Assembly (NCBI GenBank): GCA_015489295.1
Contig: WGAB01000027.1
Coordinates: 1 to 24,156, forward strand
Length of the DNA stretch: 24,156 bases
Source: Caldifarciminota bacterium
GTDB lineage: Bacteria; WOR-3; Hydrothermia; WGAB01
Direction of reading: 5' to 3'
Shown: in pieces, positions 5,591 to 14,239 of the stretch
Layout: every line of letters starts with the position of its first letter
Numbering within the stretch: position 1 is the first letter of the stretch
Made by a program: the position numbers and the translations under genes
The notes under the pieces: generated by a model
Databases searched by the model: none
The model's input: only the letters and a program-made list of their open reading frames with translations
Told to the model about the DNA's origin: nothing

Positions 5591-5607
5591 CTCCCCGATG
5601 CGAGGGC

Positions 5608-5613
5608 TATAAT
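5608..5613 (+). promoter_or_regulatory. TATAAT -10 box of the xanthine dehydrogenase operon (leaderless)
   Basis: A consensus TATAAT ends seven bases before the ATG at 5621. The predicted start site (about 5620) therefore nearly coincides with the start codon. There is no ribosome-binding site in the interval. The -35 region (TTCTCC at 5585-5590) is weak. Confidence 0.65.
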
Positions 5614-5620
5614 AGGCGTA

Positions 5621-7849
5621 ATGGATCACGTGGTGGGAAAGCCTGTCCGCCGGCGGGACGGCCGCGAAAAGACCGCCGGCATCCTGCGGTACGTGGCCGA
5701 TCTGGAGGTGCCCCACCTGCTCCACGGTGCCATCTACCGGTCGCCTGTGCCCCACGGCCTCCTCAAAGCCATCCACCTGGAGCCCGACTTTCCCTGGCAC
5801 GAGTTCGTGGTGGTCACAGCCCGCGATATTCCCGGCGAAAACCGGAACCCCATGATCCTGCCCGACCAGCCGTTTCTGGCCGAGGACCGGGTGAAGTACA
5901 TCGGCGAGCCCGTGGTGCTCCTGGCCCATTCCGATCCCCGGAAGGTTCGGCAGGCCCTGGAGCACATCCACCTGGACATCGAGCCCCTGTCCGCGGTGTA
6001 CACCATCGAAGAGGCGCTGGCCCCCCAGGCCCCTGCCGTGTACCCGCCCGACAACGTGTTTGTGCGGTACGAGATCCGGCAGGGCGACCCCGAACCGGTG
6101 TTCCAGGACCCCGAGGTTCGGGTGGTGGAAGCCGAGTACCGCACCGGGTTTCAGGAGCACGTGTACCTGGAACCCCAGGGAATGCTGGCCCTGTACCGCC
6201 CTGGCGACGACATCAAGATCGTGGGCAGCATGCAGTGCCCCTTTTACGTGCAGAACGCCCTGCGTGCCCTGACCGGTGGCCGGGAGGTGGAGGTGGAGCA
6301 GGCGCCCACAGGTGGGGGCTTCGGCGGCAAAGAGGAGTATCCTTCGCTGCTGGCGGCCTACGCGTACCTCCTGGCCCTGAAGGCCCGGCGGCCGGTGCGC
6401 ATCCTGTATGACCGCCATGAGGACATGGCGTACACCACGAAACGGCACGCGTCTCTGATCCGCCACCGCACGGCCCTGGGCGCCGATGGCCGAATCCGGG
6501 CCATGGAGATCGAGGTGTACCTGAACGCCGGGGCCTATGCCACCCTGAGCCCGGTGGTGCTGGCCCGGGGCATCCTCCACGCCACCGGCGTGTACCACAT
6601 CCCGAACGTGGTGATTCGGGGATACGCGGTGGCCACCAACCTTCCTCCCAGCGGGGCCTTTCGCGGCTTCGGCGCGCCCCAAACTCTCTTTGCCCTGGAA
6701 CGGCACATGGACCTCCTGGCCCGGCAGGTTGGCGAGGACCCGATCACCTTCCGGGAGCGGCACCTCCTGCGCACCGGCCAAACCTTTCCCACCGGCGAGG
6801 TGGTGCGCCAGGGTGAACGGATCGAAGCCGTGTTCCGCCGGGCTTTGGAGGTTTCGCGATTCCGGGAACGCCGTCGGGAGATCGAGGCGGCGAACCGAAG
6901 GAGCCCCAGGGTCCAGCGGGGGATCGGGCTGGCGCTGTTCCTGCACGGCGCTGGGTTCACCGGCAGCGGCGAAAAGAAACTGGCTTCCCGGGTACGGCTT
7001 GAACTGCACCCCGACGGCGCCCTGTGGATCCGCATCGGCTCCGTTGACATGGGTCAGGGCACCCTGACGGTGTTAAGCCAGATCGTGGCCGATGCCGTGG
7101 GCGCACCGCTGGACCAGGTGCGGTACGCCACCCCCAACACCCGGTACAACGAGGACAGCGGCCCCACGGTGGCTTCCCGTACCGTGATGGTGGTGGGTGG
7201 CCTCCTGGCCCAGGCTGGCCGGAGGATCCGGGCCGAACTGGAAACGGCCCTGGGGCGTCCTGTGACCTCCCCTGAAGCGTACCGGCAAGCCGTACAGGCC
7301 CTCTTTGCCCGCCGTTCCGGAACCCTTGAGGTGGTAGAACAGTTCCAGCTGCCTCCGGAGGTGAAGTGGGACGAGGAACGGTTCCGGGGTAAGGCCTACC
7401 TGGATTACGCCTGGGCCTGCTATGTGGCCGAGGTGGAGGTGGATCTTGCCACCTACCGGGTCAGGCCCACCCGGTTCGTGGCCGTCCAGGACGTGGGAAC
7501 CGTGGTGAATCCGCTGCTGGCCGAGGGCCAGGTGCACGGCGGTGTGGCCCAGGGGATCGGCTTCGCCCTGATGGAGAACCTGCAGGTTCAGGACGGCCGG
7601 TTTGTCCAGAGCCGGTTGGCGGAGTACATCATTCCGACCGCGCTGGATGTGCCTTCGGAGTTTGAGGTGGAGTTCCTGTACCAGGAGGGTGATCCTCCGC
7701 GGGGGCTTGGGGAATTGCCCATGGACGGCTCGGCTCCGGCCGTGATCAACGCCGTGGTCCACGCCCTGGGAACGGAGATTTTCCAGATCCCTGCCACGCC
7801 CGACCGGCTTTGGGCATGGCACAAAGCCGCCAGGGAGGCCTCGTCGTGA
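5621..7849 (+). CDS. xdhA: Xanthine dehydrogenase-type molybdenum hydroxylase, molybdopterin-binding subunit
   Basis: The 742-residue catalytic subunit hydroxylates a purine or similar heterocycle at a sulfurated molybdenum cofactor. The N-terminal hammerhead domain starts at GKPVRRRDGREKTAG. Active-site landmarks are PTGGGFGGKE (Glu238), ARGILH (Arg316), GAFRGFG (Phe350) and GLGELP (Glu698). These align by eye with Glu802, Arg880, Phe914 and Glu1261 of bovine xanthine oxidoreductase; the Glu/Arg pair distinguishes xanthine dehydrogenases from aldehyde oxidases. The CO dehydrogenase motif AYxCSFR is absent. I chose ATG 5621 because the hammerhead begins there and a TATAAT box lies just upstream. 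The frame stays open far upstream, but that stretch is antisense to ctpA. It is the first of four overlapping genes; its stop overlaps the next start. Confidence 0.93.
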   Translation: MDHVVGKPVRRRDGREKTAGILRYVADLEVPHLLHGAIYRSPVPHGLLKAIHLEPDFPWHEFVVVTARDIPGENRNPMILPDQPFLAEDRVKYIGEPVVLLAHSDPRKVRQALEHIHLDIEPLSAVYTIEEALAPQAPAVYPPDNVFVRYEIRQGDPEPVFQDPEVRVVEAEYRTGFQEHVYLEPQGMLALYRPGDDIKIVGSMQCPFYVQNALRALTGGREVEVEQAPTGGGFGGKEEYPSLLAAYAYLLALKARRPVRILYDRHEDMAYTTKRHASLIRHRTALGADGRIRAMEIEVYLNAGAYATLSPVVLARGILHATGVYHIPNVVIRGYAVATNLPPSGAFRGFGAPQTLFALERHMDLLARQVGEDPITFRERHLLRTGQTFPTGEVVRQGERIEAVFRRALEVSRFRERRREIEAANRRSPRVQRGIGLALFLHGAGFTGSGEKKLASRVRLELHPDGALWIRIGSVDMGQGTLTVLSQIVADAVGAPLDQVRYATPNTRYNEDSGPTVASRTVMVVGGLLAQAGRRIRAELETALGRPVTSPEAYRQAVQALFARRSGTLEVVEQFQLPPEVKWDEERFRGKAYLDYAWACYVAEVEVDLATYRVRPTRFVAVQDVGTVVNPLLAEGQVHGGVAQGIGFALMENLQVQDGRFVQSRLAEYIIPTALDVPSEFEVEFLYQEGDPPRGLGELPMDGSAPAVINAVVHALGTEIFQIPATPDRLWAWHKAAREASS

Positions 7850-8313
7850 AGATCCGGTTCAAACTGAACGGCAAATGGGTGGAAACCGAAACCTCGCCCC
7901 CGGAACGGGCCCTGGACGTACTACGGGACCGTCTCGGCGTCATCTCCGTCAAGGAAGGCTGTGGCGAGGGGGAGTGTGGGGCCTGTTCCATCCTTTACAA
8001 CGGTCGCCAGGTGCTTTCCTGCCTGTTGCCGGCGACCCAGCTGGAGGGGGCGGAGGTGTGGACCGCAGAGGGGCTTCAGGACACCGAGGTCTTCGAGGCG
8101 TTCCTGGAATCCGATGCCCTCCAGTGCGGCTTTTGCACCCCGGGGTTTCTGGTGGCAGCGCACGCCTATGTGCTTCAGGGAGGATCCGCAGAGCCCCAGG
8201 CCATCCGCGAGGCCCTGGCAGGCAACCTGTGCCGGTGCACCGGCTATCTGCATATCGTTCAGGCCATCCGCAAGGCCCTGAGGAAACGCCATGCTGCACA
8301 TTCCCCGGAGTGA
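7846..8313 (+). CDS. Xanthine dehydrogenase-type iron-sulfur subunit (two [2Fe-2S])
   Basis: A 155-residue electron-transfer subunit that passes electrons from molybdenum to FAD. The plant-ferredoxin-type cluster uses Cys39, Cys44, Cys47 and Cys59 (GCGEGECGAC, then LSCLLP). The second, helical-domain cluster uses Cys94, Cys97, Cys129 and Cys131 (CGFCTPG and CRCTGY). The size is normal for the separate small subunit. The start is GTG 7846, which overlaps the Mo-subunit stop as GTGA and is preceded by a GGGAGG ribosome site at about 7833-7838. Extending to an upstream ATG (7810) would run inside the Mo-subunit gene without family similarity. Gene naming differs between species, so no symbol is given. 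The 3' end overlaps the FAD subunit by 23 bases. Confidence 0.94.
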   Translation: MKIRFKLNGKWVETETSPPERALDVLRDRLGVISVKEGCGEGECGACSILYNGRQVLSCLLPATQLEGAEVWTAEGLQDTEVFEAFLESDALQCGFCTPGFLVAAHAYVLQGGSAEPQAIREALAGNLCRCTGYLHIVQAIRKALRKRHAAHSPE

Positions 8314-9124
8314 AGCAGAACTCCTCGAGATTCTGGATCGGTACCCGGTATGGGGGTTCTGGGCGGGTGCCACCGATCTCCAGGTGGCCTGGCAGCGGGG
8401 ACAGGTGCCGTGGTCTCCGGAGGTCCACCATGTGGACCTGTACCACCTGAAGGATCGGTGGAACGAGATCCGGGTGCGCCACGACCACCTGGAAATCGGT
8501 GCCCTCGCGACGGTCACGGATCTGCTCGAATCTTCGTTGATCCAGACCCTTGCGCCGGTGTTGCACGCAGCCGCCCGGGTTTTTGGCAGCCCGCCGATCC
8601 GGAACATGGCCACGGTGGGCGGCAACCTGGCCAATGCGTCGCCGGCCGCAGACCTGTGGCCGCCCCTGCTGGTGCTGGAGGCCCAGGTAGAACTGCTGTC
8701 GCCCTCGGGAAGCCGAAGGGTGCCCCTGGCCGGGTTTTACACCGGGTACCGGCAAACCGTTCGGACGCCCCACGAGGTGATCCGGCGGGTGCGGATCGCC
8801 CCGGATTCTCTGGAACTGCCCTTCTATTACCGCAAGGTGGGGCTGCGGCAAAGCCAGGCGATCGCGGTGGTGTCCCTGGCCGCCGTGCGGACGGCCGAGG
8901 GCCAGCTTCGCCTGGCCGCCGGAGCCGTCAACCCCACGGTGCAGCGGTTGGCCTCGGTGGAACTTCTGGTCAACTCGGGCACCTCGCCGGATCCCCAGCG
9001 GTTACGGGAGGCCCTGGCCGCGGATATCCATCCGATCACCGATCTTCGGGCCACCGCCGAGTACCGGTTTGACACCACCTTGAGCTTTGTACAGGAGGCC
9101 CTGGAGGTGTTGCGCCATGCCTGA
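8291..9124 (+). CDS. xdhB: Xanthine dehydrogenase-type FAD-binding subunit
   Basis: A 277-residue flavoprotein of the CoxM/XDH medium-subunit family, which transfers electrons to NAD+ or another acceptor. The N-terminal FAD motif reads WAGATDL where AGGTDL is usual. The second FAD signature is IRNMATVGGNLANASPAADL, which is textbook. The C-terminal CO-dehydrogenase flavoprotein domain follows (FYTGYRQT, FYYRKVGLRQSQAIAVVSLA). The four-cysteine [4Fe-4S] insertion found in some benzoyl-CoA reductases is absent. The start ATG 8291 lies inside the end of the iron-sulfur subunit gene and the stop overlaps xdhC by eight bases, so the operon is translationally coupled throughout. Family assignment is secure; the electron acceptor cannot be read from the sequence. 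Confidence 0.92.
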   Translation: MLHIPRSEAELLEILDRYPVWGFWAGATDLQVAWQRGQVPWSPEVHHVDLYHLKDRWNEIRVRHDHLEIGALATVTDLLESSLIQTLAPVLHAAARVFGSPPIRNMATVGGNLANASPAADLWPPLLVLEAQVELLSPSGSRRVPLAGFYTGYRQTVRTPHEVIRRVRIAPDSLELPFYYRKVGLRQSQAIAVVSLAAVRTAEGQLRLAAGAVNPTVQRLASVELLVNSGTSPDPQRLREALAADIHPITDLRATAEYRFDTTLSFVQEALEVLRHA

Positions 9125-9944
9125 GTTTCCCTGGCTGGAGGAGGCCCAGCGCCTGCTGCGGGAACGGAAGCCCTTTGTGTTGGCCACCATCGTGGAGAAA
9201 AAGGGACACAGCCCCCGGGAACCCGGCACCCGCGCCATCGTGCTGGAGGACGGTACCCTGCTGGGCACCATCGGCGGCGGTGAAACCGAACAGGCCGTAG
9301 CCCGGGATGCGATGGAGGTGTTCCAGACCCGCCGGTCCCTCCTCAAAACCTACACCTTTGCCCATGGAGGCTGTGGGGGTGTGATCACCGTGTTTCTGGA
9401 ACTCTTTGAGCCAGCGCCCCTTCTCTACATCTTCGGAGGCGGGCACGTGGGCCGGGCCCTGGCCGAAGCCCTGGCCGGCACCCGGTTCGAGGTGGTGGTC
9501 ATCGAGCCCCATGCCCGGCCCCTGGATCTTCCAGGCGTGCAATGGATTTCCCGGGGGGCCGAGGAGGTGCTGCCCCGGCTCCTTTACCACCCGCGATACA
9601 CCTATCTGGTGGTCACCACCTATTCCCACGAGATCGATGAGACCATTGCCCGGGAGGTGTTGCCGCGCCCCTTCCGGTACCTGGGCATCATCGGGAGCGA
9701 GAGCAAGTGCAAGGGCTTGAAGATCCGGCTGCGCCGACTTGGGGCCACCGAGGAGCAACTGGCCCGGATCCGCTGCCCCATGGGCTTGTTCAAGGGGCGG
9801 CAGCCCAAGGAAGTGGCCATCAGCGTGGCTGCCGAAATTCTGCAGGTAGCCGGTGAAGACGCCGCCCCTCAGGCTCCGACGGCTGCCCCGGACCCCACGG
9901 GTGTGGAAATCCGGCCGCCGGAACCCCGGCCCTCATCACCGTAG
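9117..9944 (+). CDS. xdhC: XdhC/CoxI family molybdenum cofactor maturation factor
   Basis: XdhC proteins bind molybdenum cofactor, promote its sulfuration and hand it to the apo-dehydrogenase; they are not part of the mature enzyme. The 275-residue product has the N-terminal XdhC/CoxI domain (ATIVEKKGHSPREPGT, GTIGGGETE) and a C-terminal Rossmann-type domain (YIFGGGHVGRALAE). A conserved YLGIIGS segment follows, and then CPMGL and PKEVAISVAAEIL. The start ATG 9117 is preceded by GGAGGT and overlaps the FAD-subunit stop. The last ~25 residues are Pro-rich and nonconserved. No MobA-like cytidylyltransferase or cysteine desulfurase is encoded nearby. It ends 59 bases from the convergent dsrE2-like gene. 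No convincing intrinsic terminator with a T-run is visible between them. Confidence 0.93.
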   Translation: MPEFPWLEEAQRLLRERKPFVLATIVEKKGHSPREPGTRAIVLEDGTLLGTIGGGETEQAVARDAMEVFQTRRSLLKTYTFAHGGCGGVITVFLELFEPAPLLYIFGGGHVGRALAEALAGTRFEVVVIEPHARPLDLPGVQWISRGAEEVLPRLLYHPRYTYLVVTTYSHEIDETIAREVLPRPFRYLGIIGSESKCKGLKIRLRRLGATEEQLARIRCPMGLFKGRQPKEVAISVAAEILQVAGEDAAPQAPTAAPDPTGVEIRPPEPRPSSP

Positions 9945-10003
9945 GCTTTCCTGTATGTGCTTCGCGCTGCCCTTTGGGGTGTTTCCTGGCCCCAGTGGCC
10001 GCT

Positions 10004-10507
10004 TCAGATAAAGATGATCTGGGCCCCTTCGGTCATCTCGATGAAGTCGCCGGCGGTCACGATGTCGTCGACCACCTCCAGGAAATCGTCCTTGGTCAGG
10101 CCCATCATGTCCACGGTCATCTTACAGGCGTAGAGTTTGGCGCCGGCGTCGTGGAGCATCTGGAGCATTTCCCGTACGGGCGGGGCGTCCACCTCGGCGA
10201 TCTTTTTCTTCATGAGGGCGGTGGCGATCTCGGTCATTCCGGGCAGGACCCCCATCCACTGGGGGATGCCGAAGTCGATCGGAAAGCCCATCATGCCCGT
10301 GCGCATGCTGGCGTTGCCCACCGGCGGCAACTTGAGGTGATCTACGCGCTTCTTGTTGATGAGGTCCAGGCCCCAGAAGGTGAAGAAAATGATGACGTCC
10401 ACGCCCTCGGTGAGGGCAGCCCACCCCATGATGAGGGCGGGATAGGCCATGTCCAGGTTGCCCTTGGAGCAGATGAAGGCCATCGTGCGGGTTTGTTCCT
10501 CGGGCAT
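10004..10507 (-). CDS. DsrE/DsrF/DrsH-like (DsrE2-type) sulfur carrier
   Basis: A 167-residue protein of the DsrE2 group, small sulfurtransferases that carry sulfur as cysteine persulfide. The conserved landmarks are FICSKGNLDMAYPAL (Cys13), VIIFFTFWGLDLI, MGFPIDFGIPQWMG and LYACKMTVDMMGL (Cys128). Cys128 aligns with the cysteine conserved across the family. The hydrophobic stretch at about 24-50 has been read as membrane-associated in some relatives; here it looks like buried beta-alpha structure. The start ATG 10507 has an AGGAGG site at the right spacing; an in-frame GTG three codons upstream is less likely. It is the last gene of the sulfur operon, 61 bases after the DsrC-like gene. No TusA or rhodanese partner is in the window. 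Confidence 0.88.
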   Translation of the reverse strand: MPEEQTRTMAFICSKGNLDMAYPALIMGWAALTEGVDVIIFFTFWGLDLINKKRVDHLKLPPVGNASMRTGMMGFPIDFGIPQWMGVLPGMTEIATALMKKKIAEVDAPPVREMLQMLHDAGAKLYACKMTVDMMGLTKDDFLEVVDDIVTAGDFIEMTEGAQIIFI

Positions 10508-10525
10508 GGAGACCACCTCCTTCTC

Positions 10526-10568
10526 GGGTTATCGTCCTGCCCCAGGGAGGTCGATAACCCTCAGGGTT
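10526..10568 (-). promoter_or_regulatory. Two mutually exclusive RNA hairpins between the DsrC-like and DsrE2-like genes
   Basis: Perfect nine-base arms at 10526-10534 (GGGTTATCG) and 10552-10560 (CGATAACCC) can extend past one mismatch by three more pairs. The stretch AACCC at 10556-10560 can instead pair with GGGTT at 10564-10568, just after the DsrC-like stop codon. The two folds exclude one another. No T-run follows on the minus strand, so this is not a classical terminator. It may set transcript stability or attenuation within the operon, or be a protein-binding palindrome. Confidence 0.55.
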
Positions 10569-10883
10569 TTAGATGCATCCGGCCGGTTTGGGCACCCCGG
10601 CAATGCGGGCCACCTTTTTGGCCGGACCCTTGGGAAAGAGCTTGAAGAGTTCCTTGGTGGGGATGCCCGTGCCCGTGCTGATCTGGCGAATGGTCGGCGA
10701 AGCGCCGTGTTCCTGGTAGTAGTTCCGGACGAAATGGATCACCTCCCAGTGCCGATCCGTGAGGTCGATCCCCATTTCCTGAGCAATGGCCTGGGCGATC
10801 TCCGGGGTCCAGTCCTGGGGGTTCACCAGGTACCCCTCATCGTTGACTTCAACTTCTTTGTTGGCAATCACCCGGGTTGCCAT
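10569..10883 (-). CDS. DsrC/TusE family sulfur relay protein, single-cysteine form
   Basis: A 104-residue protein of the DsrC/TusE/DsvC family, which accepts persulfide sulfur on a flexible C-terminal arm. The family core is clear (DEGYLVNPQDWTPEIAQ, LTDRHWEVIHFVRNYY, TGIPTKELFKLFPKGPAK), as is the penultimate cysteine in GVPKPAGCI (Cys103). The second cysteine of true DsrC, eleven residues earlier, is replaced by Ala92. The protein therefore cannot form the DsrC trisulfide used by dissimilatory sulfite reductase. This groups it with TusE-like or other single-cysteine carriers. Its context with SQR and DsrE2 rather than TusBCD and MnmA argues for sulfur oxidation or trafficking rather than tRNA thiolation. 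The start ATG 10883 overlaps the DUF1641 gene by 16 bases, and an AGGAGG site precedes it. Confidence 0.93.
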   Translation of the reverse strand: MATRVIANKEVEVNDEGYLVNPQDWTPEIAQAIAQEMGIDLTDRHWEVIHFVRNYYQEHGASPTIRQISTGTGIPTKELFKLFPKGPAKKVARIAGVPKPAGCI

Positions 10884-11593
10884 GATCCTACCTCCTTGTT
10901 TTCAACGGATTTCGGCGAAAACGCACGAAGAATTTTCAAAGAAACCACAAGCCCTCGGCGCACCGAGGGGTCCCGCAAAAGCCGAAGCAGGGTTTTCAGG
11001 GAGCCGTCGGCGGCCTGGGGCTGGTTCCGGGCCTCCTGCAGGGTTCCGGTGGCCTCGCGCAATACGTCCAGGAGTTCGGGCTGCGTGAGGTCCTGCAGGG
11101 TGTCCAGCAGGAGGAGAACCCGGTCTGCCAGGCGCCGGAGTTCCTCGGGGGAGTACCGGGTGACCACGGTATCGAGAACCCGGGCAGCCTCCCGGAAAAA
11201 GGCGAAGTAGCCCCGTTTCTCCATCCGGTCCATGGCGTCGATAAGGGCGGGCACAGCCTCGTCGGCAACGCGGCTCAGGTCCTGGGACAGGTTCCGGAGG
11301 CTTTCCAGTTGTTCCAGCAACCAGATGAAGTTGCGCACGTTGCGCAGGACCAGATGGCCCAGGTGGTACAGGTCTTCCAGTTGAACGAAGTTTTCGAGAT
11401 CCTGAAATTCCCGCTGGAGCACCTCGTAGAGCTGTTCCAGTACCGGAATCAAGTCTTCCATCAGGCCGGTGTGGGCTGCCCGCTGTCGTTGCTGTTCCCG
11501 CACGTAGTCGGCAATGAGGCGTACGTCGCGGGACAGGGCGTCCAGCCGTTCTTCCAGTGAGGTTTGCTGCGGTGGAACTTCGGGGTTTGCCAT
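10868..11593 (-). CDS. DUF1641 family protein
   Basis: A 241-residue, almost entirely helical, soluble protein. The N-terminus has an acidic/basic coiled-coil-like region (SLEERLDALSRDVRLIADYV), and the central part is rich in Leu and charged residues. The DUF1641 core is the segment around LADRVLLLLDTLQDLTQ. No Cys or metal motif is visible. DUF1641 proteins accompany oxidoreductases; one (ForE) is, as I recall, the partner of a menaquinone-linked formate dehydrogenase in Bacillus subtilis, which suggests an adaptor or quinone-coupling role. Here it lies directly behind the SQR-like flavoprotein. I chose ATG 11593, nine bases after the upstream stop and preceded by GAGGGG. An ATG at 11611 overlapping the SQR-like gene is the alternative start. 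Confidence 0.78.
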   Translation of the reverse strand: MANPEVPPQQTSLEERLDALSRDVRLIADYVREQQRQRAAHTGLMEDLIPVLEQLYEVLQREFQDLENFVQLEDLYHLGHLVLRNVRNFIWLLEQLESLRNLSQDLSRVADEAVPALIDAMDRMEKRGYFAFFREAARVLDTVVTRYSPEELRRLADRVLLLLDTLQDLTQPELLDVLREATGTLQEARNQPQAADGSLKTLLRLLRDPSVRRGLVVSLKILRAFSPKSVENKEVGSWQPG

Positions 11594-11601
11594 GGTGCCC
11601 C

Positions 11602-12834
11602 TCACACCCATTTGCCTGCAATGGTCATCTGGGCCGGAATGGGAATGGGTTTGCCCTTCAGGAGCACGTTCCAGTAGAACCAGCGGAACAGCAGTTTCCC
11701 CCAGTGGTTCACGCGGGACTCGGCGAGCAGCGAGAAGGGCCCCACTCCTGGCAGGGGGAACTTGCCGGGAAGGGCCTCGGTTTCGTAGTTGAAGTCGATG
11801 AGGATGGCCTTGCCAAAGCCCGTCTCGATGTAGCAGTTGGAATGTCCGTCAAAGGTGGGCAGAAGATCCAGCCCTTCGATGTACCGCAGGAAATTGGGCA
11901 CGAAGACGTCCACCATGAAGTGGGCTACGGAGCCGGCCTTGGAGGTGGGCACGTTGGTGGCATCGCCCAGGACAAAGATGTTGTCAAAGTTTTGGGCCTT
12001 GAGGGTGTGCTTGTCGGTGGGCACGTAGTTGAGATCGTCGCCGATGCCCGAGCGCTGGATGGCCTCGCTGCCGAAGTGGAGCGGGATCGTGACCAGAAGG
12101 TCGTAGGGAACCTCTTCTTCCTCGTAGGAGATGAGCACCTTCCTTTCCGGGTCCACCCGTTCCACATAAAAATCGGGTACCAGCTGGATGTTGCGTTCTT
12201 CCAGTAGGCTGCCCAGAACCTGGGAAGACTTGGGTTTGGTAAAGGCACCGGAAAGAGGGGTGACGTACACGATCTCCACCCGGTCGCGGATGCCCCGTTC
12301 GTGGAAGTACCAGTCGGCCAGGAACAGGAACTCCAGGGGAGCCACCGGGCACTTGATGGGCATGTCCACCAGGTTGAGCACCAGGCGACCGCCCTCAAAG
12401 TGCTCCAGGGCGTGGTGGAGGGCCAGGGCTCCTTCCAGGGTGTAGAAGTCAAAGATGCTCTTGTGCCAGGCCTCGCCCAGGAGGCCCGGGGTGTGGTCGG
12501 GCCGGGGATGGGCGCCGGTGGCGATGATGAGGAAATCGTAGGGCAGGGCCTTGGGGTTTCCCCGGAGGCGTACCCGGTTCCGGTCGGGCTCGATGGCCTC
12601 GATTTCGGTTTGGATGTAGCGGACCCGCGGAGGGAAAAGGATTCGCCGGGGCTTGATCACGTCCCGCTTGTGGTAAATGCCGAAGGGCACAAAGATGAAC
12701 CCCGGCTGATAGTAGTGGACCGGGTCCGAGTCGACGATGGTGATGGACCATTCCCGTTCGTCCAGTTCCTGCATCAGGCGGTGGGCCACCATGGTGCCCG
12801 CGGTGCCGCCCCCTAAAATCACCAGCCGCTTCAT
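11602..12834 (-). CDS. Sulfide:quinone oxidoreductase-like FAD flavoprotein
   Basis: A 410-residue member of the SQR/FccB branch of the disulfide-reductase superfamily. The FAD site opens with LVILGGGTAGTMVAHRL (residues 4-20). Further motifs are DFLIIATGAHPRP (100-112) and the second FAD contact NIFVLGDATNVPTSKAG (285-301). Only two cysteines exist: Cys162 in MPIKCPVAP, at the position of a catalytic SQR cysteine, and Cys334 in SNCYIETG. The third cysteine of classic SQRs, near residue 128, is missing. The C-terminal segment HWGKLLFRWFYWNVLL is amphipathic and suits monotopic membrane binding to reach quinone. It is the first gene of the sulfur operon, with a GGAGG site before ATG 12834. It could reduce quinone with sulfide; a polysulfide- or other sulfur-acting role is also possible. 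Confidence 0.87.
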   Translation of the reverse strand: MKRLVILGGGTAGTMVAHRLMQELDEREWSITIVDSDPVHYYQPGFIFVPFGIYHKRDVIKPRRILFPPRVRYIQTEIEAIEPDRNRVRLRGNPKALPYDFLIIATGAHPRPDHTPGLLGEAWHKSIFDFYTLEGALALHHALEHFEGGRLVLNLVDMPIKCPVAPLEFLFLADWYFHERGIRDRVEIVYVTPLSGAFTKPKSSQVLGSLLEERNIQLVPDFYVERVDPERKVLISYEEEEVPYDLLVTIPLHFGSEAIQRSGIGDDLNYVPTDKHTLKAQNFDNIFVLGDATNVPTSKAGSVAHFMVDVFVPNFLRYIEGLDLLPTFDGHSNCYIETGFGKAILIDFNYETEALPGKFPLPGVGPFSLLAESRVNHWGKLLFRWFYWNVLLKGKPIPIPAQMTIAGKWV

Positions 12835-12892
12835 CGTGGTTTCCTCCGTTGGTTCAAGGGTCGAACTCGAGGAGTTTTTGCGTGAATTTGAT

Positions 12893-12903
12893 TAACCGGG
12901 TTA
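12893..12903. promoter_or_regulatory. Palindromic operator candidate on the SQR start site
   Basis: TAACCGGGTTA is a perfect inverted repeat around a single central base. It begins one base beyond the -10 box and covers the predicted start site (about 12897). Binding here would block transcription of the sulfur operon. TAACCC/GGGTTA half-sites recur in the hairpin region at 10526-10568. The regulator is unknown and not encoded next to it. Confidence 0.45.
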
Positions 12904-12933
12904 GTATATACGGCCTTGTTGAGTTTGTTTCAA
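12904..12933 (-). promoter_or_regulatory. Promoter of the sulfur (SQR) operon
   Basis: On the minus strand TTGAAA (12933-12928), an 18-base spacer and TATACT (12909-12904) form a good sigma70-type promoter. The predicted start is near 12897, giving a leader of about 60 bases with a GGAGG ribosome site before the ATG at 12834. This is one of the few well-formed -35/-10 pairs in the window. Confidence 0.7.
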
Positions 12934-12937
12934 GGCC
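12912..12937. repeat. Seven-base inverted repeat over the SQR -35 region
   Basis: GGCCTTG (12912-12918) and CAAGGCC (12931-12937) are perfect arms around a 12-base centre. The arm at 12931-12937 overlaps the -35 hexamer of the SQR promoter, and the whole lies in the divergent SQR/purA intergenic region. It could be a second regulator site or a transcribed hairpin if purA is also read from farther upstream. Confidence 0.4.
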
Positions 12938-12961
12938 AAGGAGTCCGGGGAGCCGTGCCCT

Positions 12962-12967
12962 TAAAAT
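12962..12967 (+). promoter_or_regulatory. TAAAAT -10 box of purA (leaderless)
   Basis: TAAAAT ends six bases before the GTG start at 12974. A start site seven bases downstream of the box would fall on the G of that codon. No ribosome-binding site lies between, and no convincing -35 element is visible. Confidence 0.55.
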
Positions 12968-12973
12968 AACCCC

Positions 12974-14239
12974 GTGAACACCGCGGTGATTGGCCTGCAG
13001 TGGGGCGATGAGGGCAAGGGCAAACTTGTGGCCCTGCTGGCCGAGGAACACGAGATCATCGTGCGGTTCCAGGGCGGCGCCAATGCCGGCCACACCGTGT
13101 ATGTAGAAGGCAAGAAGCAGGTGTTCCACCTGGTGCCCTCCGGCCTGCTGCATCCCGACAAAACCGGCGTGCTGGGGCCCGGGGTGGTGGTCGACCTGGA
13201 GGTGCTGGGCCGGGAGATCCAGGCGCTGGAGGAGGCCGGAGTGCCGGTGGAGGGACGCCTGTGGATCGACGCCCGAGCCCACCTGGTAATGCCCTATCAC
13301 CGGGCTGAAGACGGTTGGGAAGAGGAACTCCGGGGCGGCGTGGGCAGCACCCGCCGGGGCATCGGCCCCACCTACCGCGACCTCTATGCCCGGTTCGGCC
13401 TCCGGGCCGGCGACCTGCTGTACCCCGATACCCTGTATCGAAAGCTCAAAAAGAGCCTGGAATGGAATAACCAGATCCTGGCGGCCCGGTACGGCAAACC
13501 CCCGTTCCAGATCCAGGACATGATGGACCTTTTAACGGCCTGGGCCGAACGGTTTCGCCCCATGATCACGGATACCCTGGTGTTGCTTCGCCGCTGGGAC
13601 CGGGAGAACCGGCCGATCCTCTTTGAAGGAGCCCAGGGAAGCCTTCTGGACATCTTCCTGGGCACCTACCCCTATGTGACCTCTTCGCACACCGTGGCCG
13701 GAGGGATTCCGGTGGGGCTGGGATGGCCCCCGCACCGGCTGCACCGGGTGGTGGGGGTCACCAAGGCGTACACCACCCGGGTCGGCAAAGGCCCCTTTCC
13801 CACCGAGGCCCATGACGCCCTGGGAGAACGGCTCCGGGAACGGGGCGGGGAGTACGGCGCCACCACCGGCCGACCCCGGCGATGTGGCTGGCTGGATCTC
13901 GTGGCCCTGAAGTACACCGCCTGGCTCAACGGCATAACTGAGGTGGCCGTTACCAAGGTGGATGTGCTCGCGGGGTTTCCGGAGGTCCTTGTGGCCACGG
14001 CGTACCGGCTTCGGGGGGAGACCCGCACCGAGTTCCCCGCTACCCTGGAGGATCTGGAGCAGGCGGAACCCCGGTACGAACGCCTGGAGGCCTGGCCTGC
14101 ACCTCTGACCGAGCAGGGAGACCTGCATCCCCACCTGGAGGCCTATTTGCAGTTCCTGGAGCGGCACCTGGATGTGCCCGTTCGTCTGGTTTCCTATGGC
14201 CCCAAGACCCATGAAGTGGTGGTTCGGAAGCCTGCGTAA
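12974..14239 (+). CDS. purA: Adenylosuccinate synthetase
   Basis: This cytoplasmic enzyme couples GTP hydrolysis to joining IMP and aspartate, the first step from IMP to AMP. The 421-residue length is normal. The GTP-binding N-terminus reads AVIGLQWGDEGKGK with the catalytic Asp in WGDEGKGK, followed by VRFQGGANAGHTV. Further family blocks are GIGPTYRDLYARFGLRAGDL, LFEGAQGSLLDIFLGTYPYVTSSH, TRVGKGPFPTE and GRPRRCGWLDLVALKY. The start is GTG 12974, which gives the expected family N-terminus and sits behind a TAAAAT box. Its 3' end overlaps the PASTA-protein gene by about 29 bases. It runs divergently from the sulfur operon, sharing a 139-base intergenic region. Identification is certain. Confidence 0.97.
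   Translation: MNTAVIGLQWGDEGKGKLVALLAEEHEIIVRFQGGANAGHTVYVEGKKQVFHLVPSGLLHPDKTGVLGPGVVVDLEVLGREIQALEEAGVPVEGRLWIDARAHLVMPYHRAEDGWEEELRGGVGSTRRGIGPTYRDLYARFGLRAGDLLYPDTLYRKLKKSLEWNNQILAARYGKPPFQIQDMMDLLTAWAERFRPMITDTLVLLRRWDRENRPILFEGAQGSLLDIFLGTYPYVTSSHTVAGGIPVGLGWPPHRLHRVVGVTKAYTTRVGKGPFPTEAHDALGERLRERGGEYGATTGRPRRCGWLDLVALKYTAWLNGITEVAVTKVDVLAGFPEVLVATAYRLRGETRTEFPATLEDLEQAEPRYERLEAWPAPLTEQGDLHPHLEAYLQFLERHLDVPVRLVSYGPKTHEVVVRKPA

Follow-up and report, generated by a model that had tools for sequence, protein, structure and literature searches.

A conserved cassette of an SQR-type flavoprotein, a DUF1641 protein and DsrC-like and DsrE2-like proteins as a candidate sulfide-oxidising module

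The window analysed here is the whole stretch of 24,156 nucleotides (nt) of contig WGAB01000027.1 (assembly GCA_015489295.1) from a Caldifarciminota bacterium. Its minus strand carries, between positions 10004 and 12834, a cassette of four genes encoding an SQR-type flavoprotein (SQR, sulfide quinone reductase), a DUF1641 protein, a DsrC/TusE-like protein with a single cysteine (Cys) and a DsrE2-like protein. All four open reading frames (ORFs) are present and tightly packed as the preliminary description of this DNA had claimed. We find it somewhat probable that the four genes constitute a respiratory sulfide-oxidising module with quinone coupling and sulfur carriers of its own. The predicted partnership between SQR and DUF1641 is held with more confidence than this module as a whole, and the order of sulfur transfer with less.

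Results and discussion

Conservation of the gene order had been chosen beforehand as one of the points on which the proposed unit could fail, and the order held. The contig scan with alignment A1 (30 SQRs) gave at least 591 confirmed relatives, and the locus counts that follow refer to the best 80 of these. At least 2.1 kb is available downstream of the SQR gene in 68 of the 80 loci, and the 12 with less were excluded from the 68-locus count. Both DsrC and DsrE2 were kept in 68/68 loci with room, and all four genes in 63 of them across many phyla, always in the same order (63/63), while the other five (L025, L045, L056, L063 and L078) are without DUF1641. The 12 early-ending loci do not contradict this conservation, and six of them still show all four genes, which brings the total to 69/80. 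Four-gene loci are found in nine named phyla, these being Chloroflexota, Bacteroidota, Ignavibacteriota, Calditrichota, Fidelibacterota (Marinimicrobia), Actinomycetota, Acidobacteriota, Verrucomicrobiota and Caldifarciminota (WOR-3), and also in KSB1 from the record label alone. The phyla were taken from record labels and tree labels, and nearly all sequences are contigs of metagenome-assembled genomes (MAGs), so that single placements may be wrong.

The nearest labelled SQR among the best 80 belongs to a candidate division WOR-3 MAG, at 82% identity. Lateral acquisition of the cassette SQR appears likely in the WOR-3 phylum, since a close SQR is present in just 2/147 of its genomes, one of them being the source of locus L001. 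A protein search of 301 Chloroflexota genomes gave an SQR match at E ≤1e-60 in 62, from which 30 loci were listed. Sixteen of the listed loci have at least 50% identity, and DsrC and DsrE2 are present in 14/14 of those with room. Fourteen Chloroflexota SQRs of about 40% identity (L100-L113) have no DsrC or DUF1641 gene in the flanking sequence, which spans at most about 1.5 kb. A DsrE2-like neighbour was observed in 10/14 of these loci. A quick tree was built from which the duplicates L081, L085 and L086 and the downstream-cut L006, L013, L030, L032, L049, L089 and L097 were left out. Here, the 14 no-cassette SQRs are placed on one side of a branch with support 86, and the cassette side has support 96. 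A reasonable history, the order of which we infer, would begin with SQR and DsrE2, with DsrC joining next and DUF1641 last.

The SQR gene (11602-12834, minus strand) encodes 410 amino acids with two Cys only, Cys162 and Cys334. Human SQOR acts alone with small-molecule acceptors, and SQRs in general tend to be regarded as single enzymes that release polysulfide or use small acceptors. The human enzyme is the best structural match of the SQR model (TM 0.87), at 25% sequence identity, and both Cys align with Cys residues of SQOR. The window protein scores 638.9 bits against NF049943 (cut-off 525) over residues 2-408 and thus at full length. This score, the Cys pair and the structural match turn what had been called SQR-like into a confident two-Cys SQR; by family membership the flavoprotein is an SQR, and sulfide:quinone activity is predicted. 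Family profile scans also upheld the names DUF1641, DsrC-like and DsrE2-like. The Cys pair is present in 81/81 aligned SQRs, but the scan patterns included these Cys, and the fair count is that of the Cys-free protein search, in which the pair was found in 13/13 cassette SQRs and 14/14 no-cassette SQRs. It is also present in the 30/30 SQRs of alignment A1.

NF049943 represents type III sulfide quinone reductase of the selenoprotein subtype, and the window SQR scores above its cut-off. The selenoprotein SQR motif is listed as HxxU in a table of PMC13188914, whose consulted passages make no mention of the four-gene cassette. Compared with the selenoprotein subtype proper, the window protein carries Cys (TGC) at position 334 and not selenocysteine (Sec, TGA). 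The Sec place of the motif most likely corresponds to the persulfide-bearing Cys, because the sole HxxC of the window SQR occurs at Cys334. A one-mismatch pattern, which catches close relatives only, found no TGA at the HxxU place in 400 Chloroflexota genomes and gave 16 TGC/TGT near-matches.

The DsrC-like protein (10569-10883, minus strand; 104 amino acids) scores 129.9 bits against PF04358 (cut-off 24.9). It had been described as a single-Cys protein, and the penultimate Cys103 is indeed its one Cys, with Ala92 at the CysB place. In canonical DsrC a second Cys (CysB) is located 11 positions upstream of CysA. Cys103 is kept in 77/77 cassette proteins, and the CysB place (column 92) is occupied by Ala in 60, Ser in 14 and Thr in 3 of the 77 and never by Cys. 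Judged by profile and Cys content the protein is of the DsrC family, yet not a canonical DsrC, being without CysB. The DsrE2-like protein (10004-10516, minus strand) has 170 amino acids from a GTG or 167 from an internal ATG at 10507, and the residue numbered Cys128 from the ATG is Cys131 in the GTG ORF. It scores 119.3 bits against PF13686 (cut-off 25) and, below the threshold of the DsrE2 equivalog NF047629, 112.1 bits (cut-off 210). Cys131 is present in 73/73 rows with a letter there, 2/75 being gapped, and Cys16 in 49/75 rows.

Adjacent DsrE-family and DsrC-family proteins are reminiscent of the Dsr/Tus sulfur relay, represented by DsrEFH-DsrC and TusBCD-TusE. The cassette differs from these systems in its CysA-only DsrC, in having SQR as the partner and in that dsrA and TusA are mostly absent from the genomes. 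Fifty cassette genomes were hand-picked, covering 49 of the best 80 loci and L083, and counts of dsrA, TusA and COX1 in these are lowered by MAG gaps. dsrA passes its cut-off in 2/50 and TusA in 12/50 genomes. A single DsrC match is found in 45/50, and in three genomes an extra full DsrC shares a contig with a dsrA match. The low incidence of dsrA and TusA suggests that the carriers are mostly independent of both and would as a rule work for neither DsrAB nor a TusA relay.

One may alternatively regard the cassette as a device for sulfide detoxification or assimilation, in which SQR lowers sulfide while DsrE2 and DsrC, in the manner of TusE, feed persulfide to tRNA thiolation or Fe-S assembly and not to energy metabolism. 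The resemblance of the DsrC-like protein to single-Cys TusE, at 91 bits against the TusE equivalog NF008562, lends itself to this explanation, as does a distant SQR-DUF1641 pair of genome G001, described below, which adjoins a TtuA-like tRNA thiolation gene. However, the equivalog cut-off of 191 is not reached, and TusA, which starts the Tus relay, exceeds its cut-off in few of the genomes. The cassette itself is also without a tRNA thiolation enzyme; the neighbour clusters are mostly unannotated, so a recurrent neighbour of that kind is possible. Taken together, an assimilatory role is in our judgement unlikely.

The respiratory setting bears on the direction of the reaction. A gene of the COX1 family passes the cut-off in 41/50 genomes, and most cassette hosts thus have a COX1-family respiratory gene. 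Reverse use of the cassette, in which anaerobic hosts would reduce protein-bound persulfide or polysulfide to sulfide at the expense of quinol, would agree with the nine genomes without a COX1-family match over the cut-off and with the many Anaerolineae and Bacteroidales that are described as anaerobes. It sits poorly with the 41 genomes that have the gene and with SQR chemistry, which favours sulfide oxidation with quinones, and we hold it to be very improbable.

If the four genes do form a sulfide-oxidising module, sulfide would attack the Cys162/Cys334 site of SQR, electrons would pass by way of flavin adenine dinucleotide (FAD) to (mena)quinone, and Cys334 would end up carrying a persulfide. 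Its sulfane sulfur would move to a Cys of DsrE2 and from there to Cys103 of DsrC, and the physiological acceptor would be a protein instead of sulfite, cyanide or free polysulfide. The DUF1641 protein, presumably free of cofactors, would lie against the C-terminal segment of SQR (about residues 361-391) and help the enzyme to gain access to quinone in the membrane, in the way that ForE assists ForC, and would be an accessory absent from some lineages. The proposed route is favoured by the carrier Cys, which are kept in every DsrC and in every DsrE2 row with a letter there. The unit had been called self-contained, an expression that is too strong, as there is no sulfur-consuming enzyme in the cassette. 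Nor does co-location prove a direct hand-off of sulfur, which is a prediction.

The DUF1641 gene (10868-11593, minus strand) encodes 241 amino acids from a likely ATG at 11593, the ORF opening at 11611, and the product has no Cys and is all-helical by model. Its match to PF07849 is narrow, with 21.9 bits against a cut-off of 21. Profile A3, made from 64 relatives, matches ForE1 at E 9.6e-9 and thereby groups DUF1641 with the quinone-coupling subunit ForE, which bears out the tie to a partner of quinone-linked formate dehydrogenase in the preliminary description. Weak matches of the same profile are YjlC in 9snk (0.0026) and the chain named 'NDH-2 membrane coupling protein' of 9pxk (0.005), and HucM matches the single window DUF1641 protein at E 0.0096. 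In terms of sequence similarity ForE is a secure relative of DUF1641, and YjlC, the NDH-2 coupling protein and HucM are leads.

The formate:menaquinone oxidoreductase ForC-ForE of B. subtilis is similar to the cassette in that a DUF1641 subunit is encoded in an operon with a soluble dehydrogenase, but its catalytic partner is a Mo enzyme rather than SQR. According to PMC8808070, ForE is required for menaquinone binding by its dehydrogenase partner. The same paper reports for ForC1 without ForE1 a turnover (kcat) with benzyl viologen of 2 compared to 96 per second, loss of most bound menaquinone and no menadione activity (PMC8808070). By analogy, the window DUF1641 protein may work like ForE, as a putative quinone coupler. 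It could instead be a plain assembly or stability factor of SQR, unrelated to quinone or membrane. The loss of most benzyl viologen activity indicates that the ForE effect is partly structural (PMC8808070), and DUF1641 is dispensable in some lineages, both of which would suit such a factor. The additional loss of bound menaquinone and of all menadione activity reported there (PMC8808070), and the hydrophobic tube to the membrane that is built by the weakly similar HucM (PMC10017518), argue for a connection to quinone, and a stability factor alone seems improbable to us.

Two further systems are instructive for the putative quinone coupler. YjlD (NDH-2) with YjlC (PDB 9snk and 9pxk) pairs an SQR-superfamily flavoprotein with a partner weakly matched by the DUF1641 profile, as judged by entry and molecule names only. 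SQR profile A1 matches residues 3-123 of YjlD (9pxk chain C) at E 2.8e-10, and the SQR model matches NDH-2 structures with TM values of about 0.68 and chain B of the YjlC-YjlD model 9a63 with TM 0.69. These proteins differ from the cassette in that there are no sulfur carriers, that NDH-2 (YjlD) oxidises NADH and that the kinship of the partner with the window DUF1641 is not secure; the open-licence literature searched yielded no paper on this system. In Huc hydrogenase, HucM forms a hydrophobic tube from the enzyme to the membrane and can hold menaquinone (PMC10017518). The similarity of HucM to DUF1641 is the weak match given above, its partner is a hydrogenase, and it oligomerises the whole complex. 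Nearer to the cassette, locus L082 (1501-4036) of G001, a WOR-3 relative, contains another SQR-like gene, of distant kinship. It precedes a DUF1641 gene, which scores 54.6 bits against PF07849, and after this comes the TtuA-like tRNA thiolation gene. hhalign of the L082 DUF1641 against A3 gives a probability of 96, and DUF1641 therefore neighbours SQR-type flavoproteins from no fewer than two SQR groups that are distant from each other.

Several observations weigh against the quinone coupler. The PF07849 score is barely above its cut-off, designed helical proteins come in between ForE1 and the weak matches in the DUF1641 profile search, with a repeat protein (2.3e-5) outscoring both YjlC and the NDH-2 coupling protein, and HucM is not among the matches of that profile up to E 1. 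With the L082 DUF1641 as query, the PDB gave no matches other than ForE1 (0.0054) and a single designed protein. Finally, the DUF1641 model is weak (predicted TM, pTM, 0.34) and without a structural match, the one Foldseek row having E 9.9.

DUF1641 is moreover not universal. Ten cassette SQRs in the tree are without it, three of them basal (L096, L098 and L099) and seven others, four of which form part of one clade. Profile A3 gives a match in 0/10 cassette genomes without the adjacent gene and in 12/12 genomes having it, nine of these positive controls having supplied A3 rows and the other three, G055, G155 and G194, none. All ten DUF1641-less loci retain DsrC, and the nine that extend far enough also retain DsrE2; since DUF1641 is missing from the ten genomes, the constant core consists of SQR, DsrC and DsrE2. 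The proposal of DUF1641 as SQR partner gains from the kinship with ForE and from co-occurrence in the cassette, but must be modified in that the partner is not a constant one.

The absence of DUF1641 in these rows was compared with SQR columns in which 93% or more of 79 DUF1641-positive rows share a residue class, with L082 and the 14 no-cassette rows additionally omitted. Columns 363, 378 and 382 deviate most, each in 7/10 DUF1641-less rows, followed by 384 and 316 at 4/10; among the 79 DUF1641-positive rows none is exceptional at 363 or at 378, and four are at 382. In a long-branch control of ten positive rows, column 386 deviated four times and two further columns three times. Among random sets of ten positive rows, three columns with at least four deviations were found anywhere in 1/500. 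Each clade-matched set of seven combined a row with the three closest to it at under 80% identity and with three more chosen at random. Three deviating columns within 25 residues were found in 0/500 random and 0/1000 clade-matched sets, a span that was set after the result was seen. The same columns lead when the three basal rows are removed (382 in 6/7, 363 and 378 in 4/7), and the DsrC and DsrE2 alignments have no such deviating column. Residue 378 opens helix 378-391 in the AlphaFold SQR model, and in SQRs this part of the enzyme meets quinone and membrane. We read these C-terminal columns as a relaxed or altered candidate contact surface for DUF1641.

The choice of span is one reason for caution with regard to this surface, and there are others. 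Clade-matched sets with three deviating columns anywhere amount to 48/1000. The rows without DUF1641 are small in number, are related to one another and have diverged somewhat further than those of the long-branch control (mean identity 58% versus 62%). In six of the ten the usual class persists in at least one of the columns, and in L025 in all three. An aromatic residue at 378 is not DUF1641-specific, because 10/14 outgroup SQRs, also without DUF1641, have one. The C-terminal segment itself is modelled with a predicted local distance difference test (pLDDT) value of about 65.

Gene layout, regulation and flanking genes

The SQR and DUF1641 genes are separated by 8 nt if the latter starts at 11593, and the DUF1641 and DsrC genes overlap by 16 nt. 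An intergenic gap of 52 nt (10517-10568, minus strand) between DsrC and DsrE2 holds a hairpin of 9 bp that precedes the start of DsrE2. This hairpin has a folding energy of -24.3 kcal/mol and, with z -1.6 in dinucleotide shuffles, is not significant alone; L001 has a stronger hairpin at the equivalent place (5697-5756; z -5.1, dinucleotide shuffles). Such hairpins are a possible candidate element for mRNA processing or stoichiometry. DsrC-DsrE2 gaps of unrelated sequence fold with z < -2 (simple shuffles) in 14/73 loci.

A short divergent upstream region (12835-12973, minus strand) extends from the SQR gene to the plus-strand ORF at 12974 and is the presumed location of the promoter. The well-formed promoter announced in the preliminary description was not recovered, as a sigma-70-type scan of 9850-13050 found none upstream of the SQR gene and its sole site is inside the DsrE2 gene. 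A TTGAAA...TATACT run is visible upstream of SQR, and a promoter may be present there, because its 19-nt spacing is outside what the scan accepts. Across the loci, a regulator cluster is situated just upstream of the cassette in 27/81 (e.g. L079, 7213-8004), and the single scanned member of it has HTH_17 and a PocR sensory domain. Clusters with ArsR members were seen in 12 loci, and those with Crp and with MerR members in 11 each.

The four-gene unit is isolated between two plus-strand genes. One is an XdhC-like gene that ends at 9944 and the other is the ORF starting at 12974, a putative adenylosuccinate synthase gene identified by eye. The XdhC-like protein accompanies large, small and medium subunits of the xanthine dehydrogenase/CO dehydrogenase type (5600-9944, plus strand), and a metallo-beta-lactamase-fold hydrolase of the Lactamase_B_3 type is encoded at 1935-2648 on the minus strand.

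Conclusions

The single parts of the cassette are of known kinds, and their combination appears new in so far as no description of the four-gene cassette was found in the titles or abstract openings of the searched open-licence literature. It may represent an undescribed respiratory complex, in which SQR would have its own DsrE2 and single-Cys DsrC as sulfane-sulfur acceptors and DUF1641 would give access to membrane quinone, in at least nine phyla and mostly without dsrAB and TusA. This wider proposal would make DUF1641 a general adaptor for quinone docking, shared by SQR, NDH-2, formate dehydrogenase and hydrogenase, and we put the proposal forward tentatively, with prospects slightly short of even. 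The cassette makes DUF1641 as a common quinone-docking adaptor testable, and likewise the fate of SQR sulfur in bacteria without dsr. Since two sulfur-carrier proteins pair with SQR in all 68 loci with room among the best 80, the cassette suggests that, in organisms annotated merely as having 'SQR', sulfur takes a route bound to proteins.

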